Source: Channallabes apus
Taxonomy: Eukaryota; Chordata; Actinopteri; Siluriformes; Clariidae
Length of the DNA: 64,000 nt
Reading direction: 5' to 3'
NCBI GenBank assembly: GCA_030522415.1
Contig: CM060108.1
Location: 35,522,756-35,586,755, forward strand
The translations under genes were made by a program, and so were the position numbers. Positions 10,306 to 64,000 of the stretch are shown here, in pieces (position 1 is the first letter of the stretch; every line of letters begins with the position of its first letter). The notes below the pieces were generated by a model. The model did no database searches. It was not told the origin of the DNA and saw only the letters and a list, made by a program, of their open reading frames with translations.

Positions 10306-13300
10306 AAGAGTGTGAAAGAGGGCATCCTGTTGAAGCAGACTAGCTCCTTTCAAAGATGGAAGAGGAGGTACTTCAAACTAAGAGGCAGGACTCTCTACTA
10401 TGCCAAGGACTCAAAGGTAATAGCAATAATAACTCACGTCTTGATGGAGCTGCATTGGTCTGACCTTGTTTAATTACCGGCTTGTTTTGTTGCAGTCTCT
10501 TATATTCGACGAAGTCGACCTTTCGGATGCCAGCGTGGCAGAGACAAGCACCAAGAACATAAATAACAGTTTTACAGTAAGGTCACACACAGCTTTAAAC
10601 TGAATGAACACAGCTTTACAGTGATTACACTCAACTGTACAGAGAGTACACACACCTTTACAGACAACAGACAGTACATACACATTTACAGTGAGTACAC
10701 AACTTTACATACTGTAATACACACTTTACACAGAGTTCACAGAGCTTTGCAGTGAGTATATAACTGTACATAATGCACACAACTTTACACTGAGTACACA
10801 GAGCTTTGCAATGAGCACACAGCTTTATAGTGTGTACAAGTAGATTTAAAGTACCTAGACACAGCTTTACAGTAAATATACACTACTTTACAGTGTGTGC
10901 ATGTAGCTTTACAGTAATTATACACTACTTTACAGTGTGTACATGTAGCTTTACAGTAATTATACACTACTTTACAGTGTGTACATGTAGCTTTACAGTA
11001 AATATACACTACTTTACAGTGTGTACATGTAGCTTTACAGTAATTATACACTACTTTACAGTGTGTACATGTAGCTTTACAGTAATTATACACTACTTTA
11101 CAGTGTGTACATGTAGCTTTACAGTGAATATACACTACTTTACAGTGTGTGCATGTAGCTTTACAGTAATTATACACTACTTTACAGTGTGTGCATGTAG
11201 CTTTACAGTGAACATACACTACTTTACAGTGTGTACATGTAGCTTTACAGTAATTATACACTACTTTACAGTGTGTACATGTAGCTTTACAGTAAATATA
11301 CACTACTTTACAGTGTGTACATGTAGCTTTACAGTAAATATACACTACTTTACAGTGTGTGCATGTAGCTTTACAGTGAACATACACTACTTTACAGTGT
11401 GTGCATGTAGCTTTACAGTAAATATACACTACTTTACAGTGTGTACATGTAGCTTTACAGTAAATATACACTACTTTACAGTGTGTGCATGTAGCTTTAC
11501 AGTAAATATACACTACTTTACAGTGTGTACATGTAGCTTTACAGTAAATATACACTACTTTACAGTGTGTGCATGTAGCTTTACAGTAAATATACACTAC
11601 TTTACAGTGTGTGCATGTAGCTTTACAGTAAATATACACTACTTTACAGTGTGTGCATGTAGCTTTACAGTAAATATACACTACTTTACAGTGTGTGCAT
11701 GTAGCTTTACAGTAAATATACACTACTTTACAGTGTGTACATGTAGCTTTACAGTAAATATACACTACTTTACAGTGTGTGCATGTAGCTTTACAGTGAA
11801 CATACACTACTTTACAGTGTGTGCATGTAGCTTTACAGTAAATATACACTACTTTACAGTGTGTACATGTAGCTTTACAGTAAATATACACTACTTTACA
11901 GTGTGTGCATGTAGCTTTACAGTAAATATACACTACTTTACAGTGTGTGCATGTAGCTTTACAGTAAATATACACTACTTTACAGTGTGTGCATGTAGCT
12001 TTACAGTAAATATACACTACTTTACAGTGTGTACATGTAGCTTTACAGTAAATATACACTACTTTACAGTGTGTGCATGTAGCTTTACAGTGAATATACA
12101 CTACTTTACAGTGTGTGCATGTAGCTTTACAGTGAACATACACTACTTTACAGTGTGTGCATGTAGCTTTACAGTGAACATACACTACTTTACAGTGTGT
12201 ACATGTAGCTTTACAGTGAACATACACTACTTTACAGTGTGTGCATGTAGCTTTACAGTGAACATACACTACTTTACAGTGTGTGCATGTAGCTTTACAG
12301 TGAACATACACTACTTTACAGTGTGTGCATGTAGCTTTACAGTGAACATACACTACTTTACAGTGTGTACATGTAGCTTTACAGTGAATATACACTACTT
12401 TACAGTGTGTACATGTAGCTTTACAGTGAATATACACTACTTTACAGTGTGTACATGTAGCTTTACAGTGAACATACACTACTTTACAGTGTGTACATGT
12501 AGCTTTACAGTGAATATACACTACTTTACAGTGTGTACATGTAGCTTTACAGTGAAAATACACTACTTTACAGTGTGTACATGTAGCTTTACAGTGAATA
12601 TACACTACTTTACAGTGTGTACATGTAGCTTTACAGTGAACATACACTACTTTACAGTGTGTACATGTAGCTTTACAGTGAAAATACACTACTTTACAGT
12701 GTGTACATGTAGCTTTACAGTAAATATACACTACTTTACAGTGTGTACATGTAGCTTTACAGTGAACATACACTACTTTACAGTGTGTACATGTAGCTTT
12801 ACAGTGAACATACACTACTTTACAGTGTGTACATGTAGCTTTACAGTAAATATACACTACTTTACAGTGTGTACATGTAGCTTTACAGTAAATATACACT
12901 ACTTTACAGTATGTACATGTAGCTTTACAGTGAATATACACTACTTTACAGTGTGTACATGTAGCTTTACAGTGAACATACACTACTTTACAGTGTGTAC
13001 ATGTAGCTTTACAGTAAATATACACTACTTTACAGTGTGTACATGTAGCTTTACAGTGAACATACACAGCTCAGTCATACAGTCACTCAGTCACAATTAT
13101 CATTTGATCCATTTACACTATTATCTCTCCCTGATTTTCTTTTATATATGTTTAAAGCTATTCATTGTCGCCTCTACTGTACCTCTCTCAGTTCTTTCAC
13201 CTGTTCACCCAACCTGTTTTCAGGTGATCACTCCTTTCCGTAAGTTGATGCTCTGTGCAGAGAGCAGGAAAGAGATGGAGGATTGGATCAGCGCCCTGAA

Positions 13301-37031: not shown

Positions 37032-38025
37032 TTATTTCTTTGGAGGAACGGGTTTGGGTTCCTCTAGCAATGGCGGACCATCCTCATCCTGATCTTCCAC
37101 TTTCTTACCCCCCTCACCAGCATTAGCATTAGCATCAGCATCATCATCATCCTCCCAATCTGACTCACTGATGTCATCGTCCGAGATGTACCAGTCTGGT
37201 TTCTCCTCTTCTTTCGTCTCCTGCTCCGAGGTGCTGATGTCCTCCGTGGCCTGAGGTTCTGGTTTCTGTTTGGTGTCCTCCAGTTTACCCCAAGCTACAG
37301 CATTGGCCTTCTTTAAGGTCACTTCGACTTTAGAAGGCACCATGTTCACAATGCTGCTCTTCACATCCACTACCTGAAGGATAAAACCAGCAAAGGTGAC
37401 TTAATATGTATGCTTTTGAACTTTGTGAATTAGAAGCTTGCAGGATTTGCCCTGCGGTGCTGATGAAACATGATAGCACTCTCTCACCCCCCACAGGTAG
37501 AAGTCCTTGTGAAACTCCTTGTCATTCTCAAACTGAATATGGCACGTCAGCTGTCGGGAACAGAAACAGGAAATACAGTACTGTATATTATTAACGTTGA
37601 AAAAAAAAAGAAAACAAAAAATTAAGAAAACATTTCCTTCAATCCAGTCACAGCGGAGTGTCCATTGCTTATTTATGTGCAGCTGATAAGTTAACTAAAA
37701 GCTTAATGAACCCCATAATTAATGAGTAAATTAAATTTTCTGAGAAGAAAATTAATTCAGAAGTTCAAACTCTTGATTTTAACCTTAACCATTATCCGTT
37801 ATAAATCAAATAAGCAGCATAAGTGTATCTCACTTTAGCGTAAGATTTCAGCCTTGTCCAGCACCACAGAGAGCTATTAGGGGTATGAACAGGCCGTGAA
37901 CTCACCACTGTGCGGTTGGCCTCCACATAGGAATGCTCAGCGTTGGCGTTCTTGGCATAAATGGTGACCACCACCTGGTTGCCCGTCTGGTGCCAGTCAT
38001 GTCGACATGCCACTTTCTTCTTATC
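37032..38025 (-). CDS. itgb1bp2: itgb1bp2 exons 9-11: CS domain and acidic tail
   Basis: Exons 38025-37906, 37550-37488 and 37373-37032 encode a CS (p23-like) domain beginning CRHDWHQTGNQVVVTIYAK and continuing through FENDKEFHKDFYLWG, VVDVKSSIVNMVPSKVEVTL and AVAWGKLE, at about residues 226-312. The remaining ~80 residues are strongly acidic, with poly-Asp and a basic PPKK end. In mammals the acidic tail has been linked to calcium binding and to restraining integrin interaction. All segments are in frame to TAA at 37034-37032. Confidence 0.93.
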
Positions 38026-40910
38026 CTGTCAACAGCAACAAGATGGCTTAATCACCATGGAGCTCTTAGGTTAAGCTTATTTGGTACCACAGTACTGTCA
38101 AACTCTTGAAAAATCTTGAGTGGTGAAAAAGGTGATTAATATCCTATAACAGCAGCTCTGAGAGTAGTTATGGCTGCAATTCCAATAACAGATTTATATG
38201 AATGCAGATGTTCATTTGTTGTTTCTACTATACGAGCAGCCGAGGAAACAAGCTTTGTGAAACTTCCATAGTACATAATATTCTAATATTAAAAGTAAAT
38301 ATAAGAAGAACTAAATGAATGTCCTAAGCAGACACTAGATTCCCCAAGACGTGTCTGTCTTGTGTCAGTCCAAATTGAAGTTATTGCTATGATACATGTA
38401 TACAGAGGTGGAAAGTAATGAATTAAATTTACTCGCATTATTGTAATTGAGTATAGATTTTTTGTGTACTTCTACTTTTTAAAGTAGTTTTTAAAATCTG
38501 TAATTTTACTTTTAAGTGTATGTTTTGTTTAAAGTATTGTACGCCAACAAATTCTTATGAAGCAAACCCCTGGTCATATTTCAGCGACCACTTTGATTTC
38601 AAGCACAACAAAGGGAACAGATTTATTATGCAAGGGTGTTCATCATCCCCCATCCCACCCCCACTGGTAAAAAAAAAAAAAAGGAACTCAGTAACTTTTA
38701 CTCTGAGTAAATTTTTAATGAGCTACTTTTTACTTTTACTTGAGTGGATTTTTATAAGGGTAACTTTACTTGTACTTCAGTAAAAGTTCACTAAAGTAAC
38801 TTTTTTTTTTTTCACAAAATTTTATTACTCTTTCCACCTCTGCATGTATAATACTTACGGATTCTGCACAGAACATAAAACCTGAACATAAAAGGTCTAC
38901 AGGGAAGATAAAATGTTTGTACCTGTTTTTGGACCCAGCAGTGTTTGTCTGCAGTACAGCCTTTTTGATCCAGGAAAGCGTTAAAGTCGATGGTCTTTAT
39001 GCAGCAGCAGCTCCAGTACTTGTATCTAATTGTTGATTAAACCAGTTTTAATGACGTTTAATAATAAGTTGATGATTTTCTGCTTAGTGCACAGCATACC
39101 TTGCTACAATACGATGTTAAATGGCTTTAAAAGTTTTCTTTCCCCTGTAAAAACCAATTACAATTGTTCCAAACTTATACATGGAACAAACAGCCCTTGC
39201 ACACATGAAAAGACACATTTTGTCTTTGATTGATACCCAGTTGCCAGTTTATACATGTGCATGCTAGACAGATGAGGAGTTGGGGACAAATTAATGTCAT
39301 GATGCTTTTCAAAATTCTTTTTTTTTTTTTTTTATAAATTAATTTTAAATTTATACAGGTTTGCAGTTTTAGGTGGTAAAATGTTCCTGTAAAATTCTAC
39401 AGGGCGAAAACTCTAGTCTAAACTATTCACACAATACAGGATCCCATGTACTGTAGTAGGAGCATATTATTTCCTAAGTTTGTTTAGAAATGTAAGAAAA
39501 TCTAAAATATCAATCAATCAATCAATCAATCAATCAAATCAACATATTTATAAAATGTGATCCTTACAGAGTCATAATTCTATTCGAATCGGCCCCTAGG
39601 TATCGTGATAATATTGTATCGGGTGACCCCTGATGATCATCATCCCTAGTAGAAGTGTCTATTTTGAACCCAATATGGTTCATTTCAAAGAACATTTTAC
39701 CTGCGCATACTAAAATGCATGTACATTTTTCCCCAGATTGAATTTTAGCTTCAATTTTTAAAGATAATTTTTCAAAATCGATTTCAAAGCTCTATGCTAG
39801 TTTATCACGTTAGAGAGGCAATATTCGTGCAGACAACAGGAAAAGTCTCAAAACAGCTTGAGAACCTTAATGAGAAATGAGCCTTGTGTGTATTCAAGTA
39901 ATAACAAAAGATTTCCAGAATTACAGACTTTCAGACCTAAACATGAAGCCTGAGTCTATTAATGTCGCAGAGGGACAAGTTAAAAATGTCTTAGTTAATT
40001 GTGACAAACACTTTACACACACAAAAACAGTAGCCTCACCCTTCGTGAAAGACCGGTGCTCCAGGGTGATATGTACAAACCTCTGCATTCGTCTCTGGAC
40101 CCTGGTACTTCTATAAACCATCACACAAACACACACACATGAAAATCAACCTGTCTCATCAATATATCACAGCCTCTCTTGACATGCACACTCACAGTAG
40201 ATGGACTCTGCGGTTTTAAAATGCATTACTTGGTTTTAAAATGCATTACTTGCGTCTGCCTTCAGATCTCAGACAATGCAGTCCAGTGACTCAGCACTCA
40301 CACAGACTGAGATAAAATCAGAATCAGAATCAGAAAGAGTTTTATTGCCAAGTACGCTTGCACGTACAAGGAATTTGTTTTAGTGACGGAGCTTCCAGAA
40401 CAAAAAATACAAATGACAAGACAAGACATTAAGACATTAAGACAAGACATAAAATGGTCAAGAGGCTCAGTGTGCCTAAAAATGCTACGCCATTCCAGGT
40501 ATATTTTTAACCCAAGTCTGGTCACAGCCGTCAGGGACAAGAAAAATCTATAAAGCTGTTTCACTTTGTAAAAGTGAACAAACTCGGGCAGAGGAGCTGA
40601 ATAAAACCTGAGGTGTCTGCTTGCGTAAGGGGACAGAAATAACAGTGTTATGGCAGAGTCAAGCATCTATTCCAATTACCAGGGACAAGGGTGACCTAAT
40701 AAGCAAATGTTTCCAAAGTAACGTCTAAGTAAAGCCTGCCTACACACTATTACCCATCATCCTTCTCTGATGCCTGGCTATTAAAGACAGCAGAGGTCAG
40801 ATCAATGCCTCATTCTATAAGGATCTGATCTGGACGTTTATCTGATAATGAGATTAATCCCTGTTAAGACGAGTGCAGGGTTTCTTAGGAGGGCTGAAGG
40901 AGAAGCGTCA

Positions 40911-40997
<87 letters not shown>

Positions 40998-41178
40998 CTG
41001 TGGCGTGCTACGAGTTGACCCCTGTGAGAGTCCCCTGCAACAAGCACTGGCCCCTGACACATTGTAACCCAACACAAGGATAAGTGGTATAGATAATAGA
41101 TGGATTGATTTTTATAAGCTGTTGTTACTCAGCCAAAGCAGCCAGGCCAATAGAGATCTAATTGAAACATAGTAAGAA

Positions 41179-41242
<64 letters not shown>

Positions 41243-44200
41243 AAAAACATAAAAAGCTAAATTAATTTGCTGTGTGCATTTCCACCACTAGAGGGCACAC
41301 TTTCACTCCAAGCTCCCAGTTGATTCTCCAGTTGACTTCAGCTTACTGGGGTTTAAAGCATGTTAGGTTTTCAGGAATAGCAGTGAAAAAGATCAGGTTC
41401 ATAAAGATGAAGTGTACTGGGTGTTCTAACAGGACTGACAGTTTGATTTAATCCCTTTGTGGAAGCTTTATCCCGGTTAGTATGGCTAATCCATTTGGCA
41501 TAAGCAAACAAATATGATTATTATAGGAATTATTAGTAATCTACAGACAGTGAAAGTGGTTGTTCTTTTGGAATAAGTGTGTTTTAGTCAGAATGGACTT
41601 GAATGTGGTCTGAATTCCTTCTGAAGTGGGTAATACAGGCCAGAAATATTTAAGAAGCAGACAAGATTGGGATTTGTTTTACCACAAAATACCTTTTTTT
41701 TTGTTTTTTTTTTAACTTGTCTTGACTGGCTGATTGCGATTGGCTGCATGAATGAATTTTCATGGTCATGCTGTGAGAAACCCTAAATCATCTACAATTC
41801 ACTGCATGCAGACACTAACACACACAGACGAACACAGAGCCACCTACTGTTTTACATCCTGAGTTTTTGCACCTAGTCCCCACCATGGTACCCTGGCTCT
41901 CTGCAACAGACGAACAGAGTGTCTGGTCACGTGACAGGAAACAAAGTGAACATTGTGTACTAAGCAAAAAGGAAGATGATGTTTCTCATAAAGATGCTAT
42001 TTATAGAACCACACACGAGTGAACAATGCTAAGGTTATCACACTGAAACTGGGTGACATGCTGCTGATGCGTGACGGTATCGATACTGGCCTGTGTATGC
42101 ACAATGAACCATCAACTAGGACACAGATATGTATAAAAGCACACTACTAAATTCTCACTTATGTTCATGTGTGCAGTTCATACATACATGACTGAACACT
42201 TAACAAGCAGTGGTTATTAAAGTATGGGGCGTAAATAATGTTAGAATGATGGAAATCACATCAGCCCCTAACAAAACTGGTACAGCTAAGTGATTGTTAA
42301 GTGCCCAATTTGTCTAATGATTAAATGGGTTTCATTAAATAGAATTCTAACAGTTGTTTCAAAAAGACTATAAAAAGATTTAGAATACGCTTTGGGTTCG
42401 AGAAAAAATTAAAGGTCCAGTAAGGAACATACACACACCTAAAGGATTATTAGGAACACCATACTACACCATACAGAACTGCCTTAATTCTACGTGGCAT
42501 TGATTCAACAAGGTGCTGAAAGCATTCTTTAGAAATGTTGGCCCATATTGATAGGATAGCATCTTACAGTTGATGGAGATTTGTGGGATGCACATCCAGG
42601 GCACGAAGCTCCCGTTCCACCACATCCCAAAGATGCTCTATTGGGTTGAGATCTGGTGACTGTGGGGGCCATTTTAGTCCAGTGAACTCAGTGTCATGTT
42701 CAAGAGACCAATTTGAAATGATTCGCGCTTTGTGACATGGTGCATTATCCTGCTGGAAGTAGCCATCAGAGGATGGGTACATGGTGGTCATAAAGGGATG
42801 GACATGGTCAGAAACAATGCTCAGGTAGGCCATGGCATTTAAACGATGCCCAATTGGCACTAAGGGGCATAAAGTGTGCCAAGAAAACATCCCCCACACC
42901 ATTACACCACCACCACCAGCAGCCTGCACAGTGGTAACAAGGCATGATGGATCCATGTGCTCATTCTGTTTACGCCAAATTCTGACTCTACCATTTGAAT
43001 GTCTCAACAGAAATCGAGACTCATCAGACCAGGCAACATTTTTCCATTCTTCAACTGCCCAATTTTGGTGAGCTTGTGCAAATTGTAGCCTCTTTCTCCT
43101 ATTTGTAGTGGAGATGAGTGGTACCCGGTGTGGTCTTCTGCTGTTGTAGCTCATCCGCCTCAAGGTTGTACGTGTTGTGGCTTCACAAATGCTTTGCTGC
43201 ATACCTCGGTTGTAACGAGTGGTTATTTCAGTCAAAGTTGCTCTTCTATCAGCTTGAATCAGTCGGCCCCATTCTCCTCTGACCTCCAGCATCAACAAGG
43301 CATTTTTGCCCACAGGACAGCCGCATACTGGATGTTTTTCCCTTTTCACACCATTCTTTGTAAACACTAGAAATGGTTGTGCGTGAAAATCCCAGTAACT
43401 GAGCAGATTGTGAAATACTCAGACCGGCCCGTCTGGCACCAACAACCATGCCACGCTCAAAATCGCTTAAATCACGTTTCTTTCCCATTCTGACATTCAG
43501 TTTGGGGTTCAGGAGATTGTCTTGACCAGGACCACACCCCTAAATGCATTGAAGCAACTGCCATGTGATTGGTTGATTAGATAATTGCATTAATGAGAAA
43601 TTGACCAGGTGTTCCTAATAATCCTTTAGGTGAGTGTATATGCATCATATGTAGGTGGATCACTGCTTAGCCAATCATGTTGGAGAAGGAAGAGGAGAAT
43701 GTCAGGATAAGAAGATTTCAGATCAGTTTCAGTACATGATGATGTATCTGATGATGTATAACGTGTTGAGCAAGGCTGAGTGATGAGAAGTGTCAGCTCA
43801 CCGAACTTTTCATGTTTCTCCTTCTCACTGATCTCCATTTTCTCTATGATCTGAGTCAGAGAAGGAGACACCATTACTTTCAGCTTGGACTTCGGTTCAT
43901 CAGAGCTGATAAGGAAAAAACAACACAGAATAATATCACGTTCTTTTGCACATATTTGTAGACAACATTTTTGTATTCAATTCCATAAATTTTTATCGTT
44001 TTTAATAGAGGTCATTGTCGCAAAGCAGCTTTACAGTATTAAAAGAAAATGATGGAAATGTGTATGAAATGTGAGAGAATGTGTATGAATCAAAATGATC
44101 AGATTAAGTCCCTGATGAGCAAGACGAGTGCGACAGTGGCAAGGAAAACACCCTGAGATGGCAATAGGAAGAAATCTTGAGAGGAACCAGATACAACAGA

Positions 44201-44476
44201 TGATGTTGTAAAGTTAATATGGAGTCCAGCTCACTATTGAAGATATACAGTATACACCGTATAGATATCTATATATAAAAATATATACAGATATAAAAAG
44301 AGAAATGGCATTTAGTTTCTGCTGTGATCAGGATTTAGAAGACAGAAAGCCTGCTAGATGAACTTTTGTGACATTTTACAAGTCCTGCTCTTTTCTCTTC
44401 CACTCTCTGAGATTCCCAGGAGAGACGCAGACAGAGAGCGCGTATGTGACAGAAATAAAGGAGAGCAATTTTAAAG

Positions 44477-44551
<75 letters not shown>

Positions 44552-46302
44552 CTGGGTCTCTCTCTCTGCAGAGCCTCGGCAGATTTGGGGCCCTGGTAGA
44601 TGATCTCCTCGTTGCTGTGGAGCTTCTGCTCTTCTTTGTCAGATGCACACTCGGGCTTGAGCGGCTCCTCAGGCTTCACATTACTGTGGTGTCCTTGGGA
44701 ACAACCCTGAGGATAATGGGACACGCGAGACAAAGGGTTCGATAAAACAAGTACTAATCATTTGTATTTGTGTTGAATGAACCAGCAGGAGTGAGGTATT
44801 TATGTCAGTGTGTTGTCGATTTCTGGATTCTGATTGGTCAGTAGTGTAAGACTACATGTCCATAGCATTTAACTGGATATTAAACGTGCTCGCTGTAATA
44901 TCTTAGCGTTTCTATAGTAACAATTTAATAGATCCTGTTTGATAGACATTCTATGTATTATAAAAAAAATAAATATTTATGATCATCAAACGTTCAAGTC
45001 AAACTGGGTCTAGTGATAACATTTCTTGTGAATGAAGGTGTAAAGCTGATCGACATCTAACCACAGTACGGTGAGGAGACTCTTAGCTGCAGTAAATAAT
45101 GCAAATGGTGCATACATATTAAAAAAGGCCATACGTTTGTGAATGATGATCTCAGCCGAGGTGGCTCAGTCGTTTAAGGAGTCATTTAAGGGAAGCTAGC
45201 AGGAAATCTTGTCAATTTGAAAAAAAGATTCTACCTTGATGGTCTCTCCAAGCAATAGTGAAACACTGGGATAAGTGCATTAGAGTAGCAGGAGATTATA
45301 TAGAGAAATAAAGCTAGTTTTTACTCTCATAACTGCTTTCTGTTGTTCTAGGCCATCAAAAGTCCCAGTTTGACTTGAACGCCCCTCATAAATAGAGACT
45401 TTTTTTTTTTTTGGTAACATTTATGAGAGGAGTCCACTCTTTGTAAGTTAAAAAGTTGTCCAGTGTTAGAACGAGTAAAACACTAAGACGTGCAGGACAG
45501 AGGACCTCCAGGACCTCCAGGACCTCCAGGACCTCCAGGACCTCCAGGACCCCCAGGACCTCCAGGACCTCCAGGACCAGTATTGGAGTAACTGCTCTGG
45601 TTATCTGATTTTGCCTTATTAACCTCAGCAGAGAGAAGGACGTGTAATTACTGATATTCTACACTGAGTCTGTGACTTACTGTTATTGGGTAAATGATCA
45701 AGTTTGGCCTGGTAACATGAACGTTGCATTGTATCTGGACATGTCGTAGATCTCATCACACAAAAACCTTAGTGAAAATATTCACTGGAAGTGGATCAGC
45801 TACCTTGATCGAGAGAAACTCGGAGAAGTCTGTTGTTCTCTTCTTACAGCAGGACCAGCCCTGAGGACAGACACAGATTTACACTCAAAGCCACTGAGCA
45901 GTCAAACAAGCTGGAAGCAAAGCATTGGTGCATTAAAGAGGAAAAGGTGGAGAATTTCCAATGACATGTTTAGAAAAGTTGCAATGCACTTAAAAAAAGT
46001 GATATATAGCTATGTGAACAAGATCTAACTATTCAGTTTAAATGTAAAAACTTGTACAGCTTTTGACAGCAATAAAATCAATATAATCAAAATCACCAAC
46101 AGCAAGTAGACTGTGTATGTGTGTGTTCACCTTCAGGGCATCATGGAAGATGGGCACTCCAGGGTGAAAACAACAGGCATCTGAATGCAGAAAGAGATAA
46201 AGAGAGCATATCACACACACATACATCACTCACACACACACACCCCCACACACACATACAGTACATCACTCACACACACACACACATACAGTACATCACT
46301 CA

Positions 46303-50637: not shown

Positions 50638-51877
50638 ACAAACACCATGAAGTCCAAAGAACACACCAGACAGGTCAGGGATAAAGTTAGAGAAATTTAA
50701 AGCAGGCTTAGGCTACAAAAAGATTTCCAAAGCCTTGAACATCCCACGGAGCACTGTTCAAGCCATCATTCAGAAATGGAAGGAGTATGGCACAACTGTA
50801 AACCTACCAAGACAAGGCCGTCCACCTAAACTCACAGGCCGAACAAGGAGAGCGCTGATCAGAAATGCAGCCAAGAGGCCCATGGTGACTCTGGACGAGC
50901 TGCAGAGATCTACTGCTCAGGTGGGGGAATCTGTCCATAGGACAACTATTAGTCGTGCACTGCACAAAGTTGGCCTTTATGGAAGAGTGGCAAGAAGAAA
51001 GCCATTGTTAACAGAAAACCATAAGAAGACCCGTTTGCAGTTTGCCACAAGCCATGTGGGGGAGCAAACATGTGGAAGAAGGTGCTCTGGTCAGATGAGA
51101 CCAAAATGGAACTTTTTGGCCAAAATGCAAAAATGCTATGTGTGGCGGAAAACTAACACTGCACATCACTCTGAACACACCATCCCCACTGTCAAATATG
51201 GTGGTGGCAGCATCATGCTCTGGGGGTGCTTCTCTTCAGCAGGGACAGGGGAGCTGGTCAGAGTTGATGGGAAGATGGATGGAGCCAAATACAGGGCAAT
51301 CTTGGAAGAAAACCTCTTGGAGTCTGCAAAAGGCTTGAGACTGGGGCGGAGGTTCACCTTCCAGCAGGACAACGACCCTAAACATAAAGCCAGGGCAACA
51401 ATGGAGTGGTTTAAAACAAAACATATCCATGTGTTAGAATGGCCCAGTCAAAGTCCAGATCTAAATCCAATCGAGAATCTGTGGCAAGATCTGAAAACTG
51501 CTGTTCACAAACGCTGTCCATCTAATCTGACTGAGCTGGAGCTGTTTTACAAAGAAGAATGGGCAAGGATTTCAGTCTCTAGATGTGCAAAGCTGGTAGA
51601 GACATACCCTAAAAGACTGGCAGCTGTAATTGCAGCAAAAGGTGGTTCTACAAAGTATTCACTCAGGGGGCTGAATAATTATGCACACCCCACTTTGCAG
51701 TTATTTATTTGTAAAAAATGTTTGGAATCATGTATGATTTTCGTTCCACTTCTCACGTGTACGCCACTTTGTATTGGTCTTTCATGTGGAATTCCAATAA
51801 AATTGATTCATGTTTGTGGCTGTAATGTGACAAAATGTGGAAAGTTCACGGGGGCCGCATACTTTTGCAAGCCACTG
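50638..51877 (+). mobile_element. Fourth Tc1-family element, 5'-truncated
   Basis: The right end GCATACTTTTGCAAGCCACTG precedes TA at 51878. No matching left end is found upstream of about 50638. The transposase lies between. Confidence 0.85.
50648..51692 (+). pseudogene. Tc1 transposase with local frameshifts
   Basis: ATGAAGTCCAAAGAACACAC starts the N-terminus, which hits a stop near 50698 because of a small deletion; the frame resumes with GYKKISKALNIPRSTVQAII. QQDNDPKHKARAT and PDLNPIENLWQDL hold the second and third catalytic residues. Between about 51073 and 51133 the reading frame is displaced and then restored, so the first catalytic Asp (in a SDET motif) is present only in a neighbouring frame. 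A single long open frame hides this defect. Confidence 0.85.
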
Positions 51878-61265: not shown

Positions 61266-62057
61266 CTGCTGGGTTAGGCACAGAGGAGGGGGGAGAAAAG
61301 AGAGAGCGAGAGACAGAGAAAAAGAATCAGGGAGACAGAGAGCAGGACAGAAAGACAGACAGAGAAAAAGAGACAAGAAGACAGAGCGGGACAGAGACAG
61401 AGAGAGGAAGGAATGGAGAAGGAGAAGACGTTAGACATGAGACATTTGCATGAACCAGTGCTGACCACAGTGGAGAAGGAGTAAGGAGGGGGGCAAAAAA
61501 GAGAGAGAAAGACAAGGCGGAGGAGGAGAAGAGGAGAGAGGAGAGGAGGGTGAGAGGTTAGTCTGAAGTATATACTTAAACTGACAGTGATGTATATTCG
61601 TTCCCACAGAGGACAGGTCATAAAAGTGAAATTCAAGAGCAAGTGGAGTGCAGAGACAGAGAAAATCATAAAACAGTCTCGGATGTGTAACTCCAAATAC
61701 ACGTACAGAATAACCAAGCTGGTGGACCGTATGCTGCAACACACACACTGTTCTCCGATCCTCTCCATGTTACATTTGGCAGCAGTGTATGATTAAACAG
61801 TGTGACCCACCTAAAGAACAAACTGTCGACCCCGAGATGCTACACAATTCTATGTAAAGATTAGAAGTGACTGTGACGGTCTGAAGTACTGATTAGAATG
61901 AACGGATGAACAAAAATATATATACAATTATTAATTACTAGTCTATATAAGCAGTAAAATGTTGCAGTTCCTCCATAACACTGCAGGTGGCGCTGTTTAA
62001 ACTATTCATTCCAACATTGGGAGGCAGCACAGAATCATATGTGATATATATATACTA
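61266..62057 (-). other. Intron upstream of the microexon
   Basis: GA-rich on plus, thus CT-rich on the transcribed strand, from 61281 to about 61560. The rest to 62057 has no exon that I recognise. Confidence 0.55.
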
Positions 62058-64000
62058 GAGAGGTACATTTCCTGAAGAAAATGTGAGTGGTGCTTGACGT
62101 GGCAAGTTAACACGAGGCTAGCTAATCAGCTTAACTCCATGATAGGAACATGGTAATCATGTTAAGTGCGCAAAGCAAAGTTTAATCAATGTCAAGTCTA
62201 TGAGCGGTTAATTACCCCCTGCGGGGGCAATTAACCACCCAGCCCCTAAGAGAGGTCACTGCACACCCCTCCCGGATAAGACGCATGATATGACACCCCA
62301 GTCAAGGGTCTACGACAAACGGTGAGGGACCAGCGGTTAATTGCCCCCTGCTGGGGCAATTAACAGTCCAGCCCCTCAGAGAGATCACTGCACACCCCTG
62401 CCAGATAAGACGCACGATATGACACCTCATTCATGGGCCTACGGCATACGGTGTTGTTATAGCAATTAATTGCCCCCTGCGGGGGCAATTAACCGCCCGC
62501 CCTCAGTAGTACCATATAACCCCATGCCCGACTGAGGCGAACGGTTTGACACCTCAATCAAGGGTCTACGAGAAACGGTGCTGGAATAGCAATTAATTGC
62601 CCCCTGCGGGGGCAATTAACCGCCCAACCCCTCAGACAGGTCACTGCACACCCCTTCCGGAGAAGACGCACGATATGACACCTCATTCATGGGCCTACGA
62701 CATACCGTGTTGTTCTAGCAGTTAATTGCCCCCTGCGGGGGCAATTAACCGCCCGCCCTCAGTAGTATCATATAACCCCATGCCCGAATGAGGTGAAGGG
62801 TTTGTCACCTCATTCAAGGGTCTACGACAAACTCAGGCAAAGCTGATCTCAATGTTAAGTCTATGAGTGGTTAATTGCCCCCTGCGGGGGCAATTAACCA
62901 CCCCAGCCCTGAGAAAAGACATGGCACCCATTCCCGAACAAGCTGCACGGTTTGACACCTCATTTATGGGCCTACAAAAAATACAAGCAAAGCTGGTCTC
63001 ATTGCTAAGTCTATGAGCGGTCAATTGCCCCCTGCGGGGGCAATTAACCGCCCAGCCCTGAGCAAAGTCATAGTACCCCACCCCCGGATAAGGCGCACGA
63101 TATGACACCTCATTCATGGGTGTATGACAAACGGTGCGGGAATAGCGGTTAAAATGTTAAGTCTATGAGAGTTTAATTGCCCCCTGCGGGGGCAATTAAC
63201 CGCCCAGCCCTGAGCGATGTCATTGCCCCCCACCCCCGGACAAGCCGTACGATTTGACACCTCATTCACGGGTCCATGCCAAACGGTGCGGGACTAGCCA
63301 TTAAAATGTTAAGTCTATGGGCGATTAATTGCCCCCTGCGGGGGCAATTAACCGCCCAGCCCCTCAGGAATGGCATAGCACCCCATCCCCGAACCAGCCG
63401 AACGGTTTGACACCTCATTCATGTGTCTGCAACAAACTAATTATTCGATAAAATCCCCATTATAAGTCAATGGGGCAATTTTAGGGACCTCTATTGCCCC
63501 GGGGGTAGAACTTATACCCTTGTGCGGGGTATCCTCTGACACAGGTGGCAAACCTCCTCAAATGGGGCGAATTTCACGTTTCTACAAAATTCCCTCTCTG
63601 CGCCACAAGCCGTCAAAATTCGGACTCCATGTTATCCTATGGGACTTTTTTGGGTGCTTAATTGCCCCCTGCGGGGGCAATTAAGCACCCACCCCTTATA
63701 AAAGTCATAGCACCCCATTCCCGATTAGGCCGCACGATATGACACCCCATTCATGGGTCTAGGACAAACGGTGCGGGACTAGTTACGCGCCAAACTTTCA
63801 TACGGAAGAAGAATAATAAAAAGAAAGAGAGGTACATTTCCTGAAGAAAATGTGAGTGGTGCTTGACGTGGCAAGTTAACACGAGGCTAGCTAATCAGCT
63901 GAACTCCATGATAGGGACATGGTAATCATGTTAAGTGCGCAAAGCAAAGTTTAATCAATGTCAAGACTATGAGCGATTAATTGCCCCCTGCGGGGGCAAT
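62058..64000. repeat. Palindrome-bearing tandem array, 1769-bp higher-order period, truncated by window end
   Basis: Eleven copies of a GC-capped palindrome (consensus arms GGTTAATTGCCCCC and complement around TGC) at about 62206, 62335, 62463, 62590, 62720, 62869, 63019, 63171, 63319, 63652 and 63974. Spacers repeat a module with GACACCTCATTCATGGGTCT and ACGACAAACGGTGCGGGACT. Spacing is 127-130 bp for the first five copies and 148-152 bp for the next four, the extra bases being AATGTTAAGTCTATGAG. The entry sequence GAGAGGTACATTTCCTGAAG at 62058 recurs at 63827. No coding frame is credible. I cannot name a family. Confidence 0.93.
63652..63690. repeat. Perfect 18-bp-arm palindrome
   Basis: GGGTGCTTAATTGCCCCC, TGC, then the exact complement. 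This copy differs from its neighbours in both arms at matching positions. Confidence 0.95.

Follow-up and report, generated by a model that had tools for sequence, protein, structure and literature searches.

A tandem array of near-identical palindromes, possibly the central repeats of a non-autonomous mobile element

Elements of the Helitron/Helentron type whose ends are conserved or whose centre consists of tandem repeats are described in passages of four reports, and such central repeats are known in HINE, DINE-1, and Helitron elements, in some cases with palindromes (PMC4067079, PMC8268682, PMC9659126, PMC12628747). Stem-loop amplification models are discussed in a passage of one of these reports (PMC8268682), and palindromes were proposed in a passage of another to aid the multiplication and spread of satellite tandem repeats (PMC12628747). 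In view of these descriptions, the statement of an earlier note on the present DNA that no described element has the layout seen here was too strong. The kind of array is itself familiar.

In the window, which is the whole 64-kb stretch of DNA that was analysed, we found 11 cores of the form CCCCCTGC[G/T]GGGGC, all on the plus strand and within positions 62215-63984 (starts at 62215, 62344, 62473, 62600, 62729, 62878, 63028, 63180, 63332, 63665, and 63984). Each belongs to a GC-capped palindrome of 27 nt, TTAATTGCCCCC-TGC-GGGGGCAATTAA, which has one orientation in all copies, numbered here M1 to M11. One arm mismatch each was found in M1 (62208-62234, A for G), M2 (62337-62363, T for G), and M7 (63021-63047, C for T). 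The other copies are M3 (62466-62492), M4 (62593-62619), M5 (62722-62748), M6 (62871-62897), M8 (63173-63199), M9 (63325-63351), M10 (63651-63691, with its 27-nt core part at 63658-63684), which is the last before the tail described below, and M11 (core at 63984), which belongs to a second unit and is cut by the window end at 64000. A search for the 15-nt core with up to three mismatches on both strands of the window gave 21 matches against 0.12 expected, a number that was reached by 0 of 100 shuffles. These matches comprised the 11 copies, nine of the same places on the opposite strand, and one site at 647 with three mismatches, which looks unrelated to the array copies. The eleven near-identical palindromes reported in the earlier note are thus present, and so is their 3-nt loop. 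However, the arm common to all copies is 12 bp rather than the 14 bp given there, and some copies have a longer stem (19 bp in M10 by DNA folding). The motifs TAATTG and CAATTA, which are mutually inverted, occur inside every palindrome between 62208 and 63684 (with one change in M1 and M7), and we take them to be a candidate homeodomain binding motif core.

The core-to-core steps were 129, 129, 127, 129, 149, 150, 152, 152, 333, and 319 bp. Two spacing classes (127-129 and 149-152 bp) can be recognised, as noted earlier; they differ by 22-24 bp directly before the palindrome. Full regularity, however, does not extend to the last two steps, since the step of 333 bp (M9-M10) crosses a block at 63433-63656 and the step of 319 bp (M10-M11) is the junction between successive units. 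The distance from CACC[T/C]CA to the palindrome was 43 nt in M2-M5, 65 nt in M6-M7, and 67 nt in M8-M9, and the sequence before the palindrome was AATAGCGGTTAAAATGTTAAGTCTATGAGAGTTTAATTG in M8 and ACCAGCGGTTAATTG in M2. Loss of 22-24 bp between direct repeats resembling GCGGTTAA could account for the short spacing class. Since two intact copies of GCGGTTAA occur together in no module, we put this deletion account forward only conditionally. Tandem Repeats Finder returned a 256-bp period with 89% matches at 62291-62832. In the spacer columns, M3 and M5 differed by 8% and M2 and M4 by 15%, against 34-40% between the two types. The 256-bp dimer of M2-M5 thus gives the growth of the array an ordinary appearance. 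Dimer periods are typically left by unequal exchange or replication slippage, and the modules probably increased in number in one of these ways.

The spacers are also repeated, in agreement with the earlier note, and align in register across the ten complete modules, with module steps of 127-152 bp except for M9-M10. Since the spacers are repeated along with the palindromes, the array consists of a tandem module and not of isolated hairpins. The modules form part of a complete head-modules-tail unit of 1,769 bp (62057-63825, plus strand), which shares its start with the next unit. This second unit begins at 63826 (offset 1769) with a head and M11, and the part of it within the window (63826-64000) is 97% identical to 62057-62231, with five mismatches in 175 bp. 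It should be noted that the unit ends are defined by the restart of the repeat and that the true element ends may differ. The unit contains a unique head of ~150 bp (62057-62207), an irregular block of 224 bp between M9 and M10 (63433-63656), and a unique tail of ~40 bp (63783-63825) with the terminal letters GAAGAATAATAAAAAGAA. The end of the head resembles the sequence before M6: a comparison of the head (62057-62200) with the sequence upstream of M6 scored 31, and 0 of 1000 shuffles scored as high, while 23, 10, 8, and 124 of 1000 shuffles did so for the sequences upstream of M7, M8, M9, and M10, respectively. As the sequence upstream of M6 is head-like, part of the array may start anew from head-like sequence. 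The idea of a degenerate module in the block at 63433-63656, which came from the spacing and a few common letters, was rejected because the block scored no better than shuffles. Its scores were 18, 22, and 22 against M1, M7, and M8 (189, 50, and 67 of 300 shuffles scored at least as high), the modules that the comparison covered; M9 and M10 were left out because their pieces overlap the block. By eye, the block has short inverted repeats of its own. Among the stop-to-stop frames listed in the array, the longest has 107 aa (reverse strand) and a protein search returned no relative; the repetitive stretch is apparently non-coding.

Within this array, the palindromes have diverged far less than the spacers. 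Among the ten complete modules, 3 of 270 cells differ in the 27-nt palindrome (mean pairwise difference 0.022). The mean pairwise difference was 0.025 over the 24 arm columns, 21 of which are invariant, and 0.311 over the 84 other columns, 28 of which are invariant, giving a 12- to 14-fold contrast that comes from ten complete modules at one locus, with M11 excluded and columns of fewer than eight letters dropped. The modules are kin by descent, and the ten rows are not independent. For this locus, then, the earlier observation that the palindromes are kept more alike than the DNA between them holds (0.022 vs 0.31). Among the remaining columns with full coverage, the 27 most conserved had a difference of 0.228, which is the fair, gapped control; length differences inflate the value of an ungapped control (0.494). 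The edges of the conserved stretch are sharp, with values of 0.34 for the flanking four columns on each side and 0.36 for the next seven. In columns outside CpG, the difference was 0.017 in the arms and still 0.310 in the spacers. The contrast thus holds outside CpG, and methylation decay is not its cause.

We consider it moderately probable that the array forms the tandem-repeat centre of a mobile element that is non-coding and probably non-autonomous. Under this reading, the window has one full unit of the element, followed head to tail by the beginning of another. The element is possibly of the rolling-circle, Helentron-like type. The head-modules-tail order, the restart at 63826, the 256-bp dimer, the palindrome contrast, and its sharp edges all speak in favour of such an element. 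Against it stands the fact that it is seen at one locus only, and 62031-64000 had no other match at E 1e-3 in the window below 61900. Rolling-circle copying would explain head-to-tail units without intervening DNA. Constraint acting on the element would preserve the 27-nt palindrome, most likely because it serves as a dyad-symmetric site for protein binding or as a hairpin used in element copying. We suggest more tentatively, and with low confidence, that element copying depends on serial near-identical palindromes, one per module, each of which would serve a recombinase or replication protein as a binding site or hairpin, with the palindrome under selection and the spacers drifting freely.

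A role of the palindromes as RNA hairpins of a transcript, for example as small-RNA precursors, appears improbable to us, although several results are in its favour. Stable stems were obtained in the DNA folds of the three palindromes folded out of the ten complete ones, with z values of -3.2 (M1), -5.8 (M7), and -7.7 (M10; -23.8 kcal/mol, 19-bp stem); the z values of the block at 63440-63520, the tail at 63760-63825, and the head were -1.4, -1.0, and -0.6, respectively. In a covariation set of 10 sequences with 16 pairs each, pairing was seen in 91.9% of the cells (92% in register vs 31-53% for slid structures), two-sided changes occur in 3 of 160 cells (reached by 5 of 500 shuffles), and the covariation score of 0.060 was likewise reached by 5 of 500 shuffles. 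However, the percentage paired was reached by 45 of 500 shuffles. The two-sided changes lie in two pairs (52 of 500 shuffles), nine of the 16 pairs have no variation at all, and further pair types showed no excess over the shuffled sets (293 of 500); the covariation is weak. Unpaired cells made up 10 of 40 in the outer four pairs and 3 of 120 in the inner twelve. Furthermore, the inner arms and loop are kept almost letter for letter, beyond what pairing requires, which would favour a dyad-symmetric site or a sequence-recognised hairpin over a plain structural stem. A search against the Rfam families found 0 matches at gathering score in the whole window; nine sub-threshold matches were far under their cut-offs, the top ones having 20.2 bits vs 60 and 100. 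Of the two possibilities raised in that note, amplification of the array agrees with the 256-bp dimer, but an RNA stem or cruciform gains no such support from the weak covariation and the lack of an Rfam match.

Two further explanations concern the way in which the palindromes multiplied. Each could be a small mobile element that inserted many times at regular intervals, and a palindrome far more alike than its surroundings would fit this. However, the spacers align in register across ten modules, which argues that the whole module was copied, and no free palindrome was found outside the array in the 64 kb except for the three-mismatch site at 647, leaving this explanation very improbable. A local satellite is a rather doubtful reading, under which the 1,769-bp unit would be a higher-order repeat from local tandem duplication and the palindromes, as hairpin-prone DNA, would be kept alike by frequent breakage and repair from a neighbour copy or from their own other arm. 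The head-to-tail arrangement typical of satellites is seen in the modules and in the start of the second 1,769-bp unit, as far as 64000, and the dimer period and the strong hairpin potential of the three palindromes folded point in the same direction. However, conversion tracts should blur at their ends, and the stretch of low divergence stops sharply on both sides of the 27 nt. In addition, the palindromes of M1 and M10 are alike, yet these modules are 31% different in the other columns. Correction arm by arm would leave the flanks unblurred, and constraint and between-copy correction both fit the data from this one locus. With so large a contrast and such sharp edges, comparing dispersed copies that have good and bad palindromes would test selection on the palindrome. 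Should a repeat library already list the family, the finding would be ordinary except for the conservation contrast.

The earlier note had suggested that the array may lie in an intron of an AP180/CALM-like gene, which was not supported. Six-frame Pfam scans at E 1e-3, which covered ~35-62 kb of the window, found no ANTH domain, and an ANTH-region probe had one match in the whole window, with E = 0.77. CHORD and CS domain matches were found on the minus strand at ~45.8, 39.0, and 38.0 kb (window ~37915-45863) in separate stretches; at 45.8 kb, no stretch passes the cut-off by itself. These matches suggest a CHORDC1-like gene, named from its domains. The array lies ~16 kb from the nearest CHORD/CS domain match found, on the 5' side of this putative gene. 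Other features of the window include a 9-bp repeat (AGGACCTCC) with 8.7 copies at 45501-45578, ~230 bp from a CHORD-domain match; Tc1/mariner-type transposase stretches at ~50693-51538 (plus strand, with a Sleeping Beauty-type HTH match) and 42600-43265 (minus strand); and a 42-bp minisatellite of ~52 copies with 97% matches, which spans 2.2 kb at 10863-13067 and has a weaker 21-bp period inside.

Searches of other sequence collections with five patterns gave 0, 0, 1, 0, and 0 loci in viral contigs, and the 19-nt inner palindrome was found at 10 loci in a prokaryote genome collection. When these 11 loci were compared with 62031-64000 by blastn, the longest stretch had 37 columns at 78% (L009), and the longest at L001 was 19 nt. 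The module is absent from these loci, which were rejected as relatives and read as chance or unrelated bacterial hairpins. In the literature, the string GCGGGGGCAATTA matched reports that by their titles concern wasp, spider, and copepod species, with two other strings unmatched, and GGTGCGGGACTAG matched one chemistry report, with five other strings unmatched; Repbase and Dfam may hold a named family.

Among described systems, the Helentron-associated HINE and DINE-1 elements, as presented in passages of PMC4067079, resemble the unit in being non-coding and in having unique ends and palindromes in their structure, with tandem repeats in some copies. Internal tandem repeats, one of their traits, are represented here by the ten modules. 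Subterminal inverted repeats of 12-15 bp were not found between head and tail, where the head (120 bp) scored 14 against the reverse-complemented tail (76 bp) with a shuffle mean of 14.3, a comparison that presupposes that the element ends where the unit does. Those elements have a palindrome of 5-10 bp at 8-35 bp from the 3' end; here a possible 6-bp stem with one G-T pair (63770-63791) lies within that range, at 34 bp from where the unit ends, but 29 of 200 shuffles folded as well as 63760-63825. We do not file the unit as a Helentron because no subterminal inverted repeat was found and the possible stem in the tail did not stand out from shuffles. The strong palindrome occurs here in every module, the last one ending 134 bp before the unit end, whereas it lies near the 3' end in the HINE and DINE-1 descriptions. 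Insertion at TT and an autonomous partner with Rep/helicase that shares the ends are described as traits of Helentron, HINE, and DINE-1 elements. The bases preceding the unit are ATACT, and Pfam scans of ~35-62 kb found no Rep/helicase domain of such a partner, which could sit anywhere in the genome.

Oyster Helitrons/Helentrons with central satellites (HindIII/Cg170 and others; PMC8268682) are like the unit in their short arrays, of about six monomers on average, between conserved ends; every monomer here has a strictly conserved palindrome, a feature that the passages of that report do not describe. Foldback and short inverted-repeat elements (Tetris, PMC9659126; the teleost elements of Izsvak et al. 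1999) are likewise mobile DNA with palindromes, and they give rise to tandem repeats. The terminal inverted repeats of TIR transposons, MITEs, and foldback elements were not found between head and tail, with the same proviso on the ends. The short inverted-repeat elements of teleosts reportedly have their inverted repeats at the element ends. In Tetris, too, a table places the inverted repeats at the ends of the element (PMC9659126), whereas the palindrome described here is internal and repeated.
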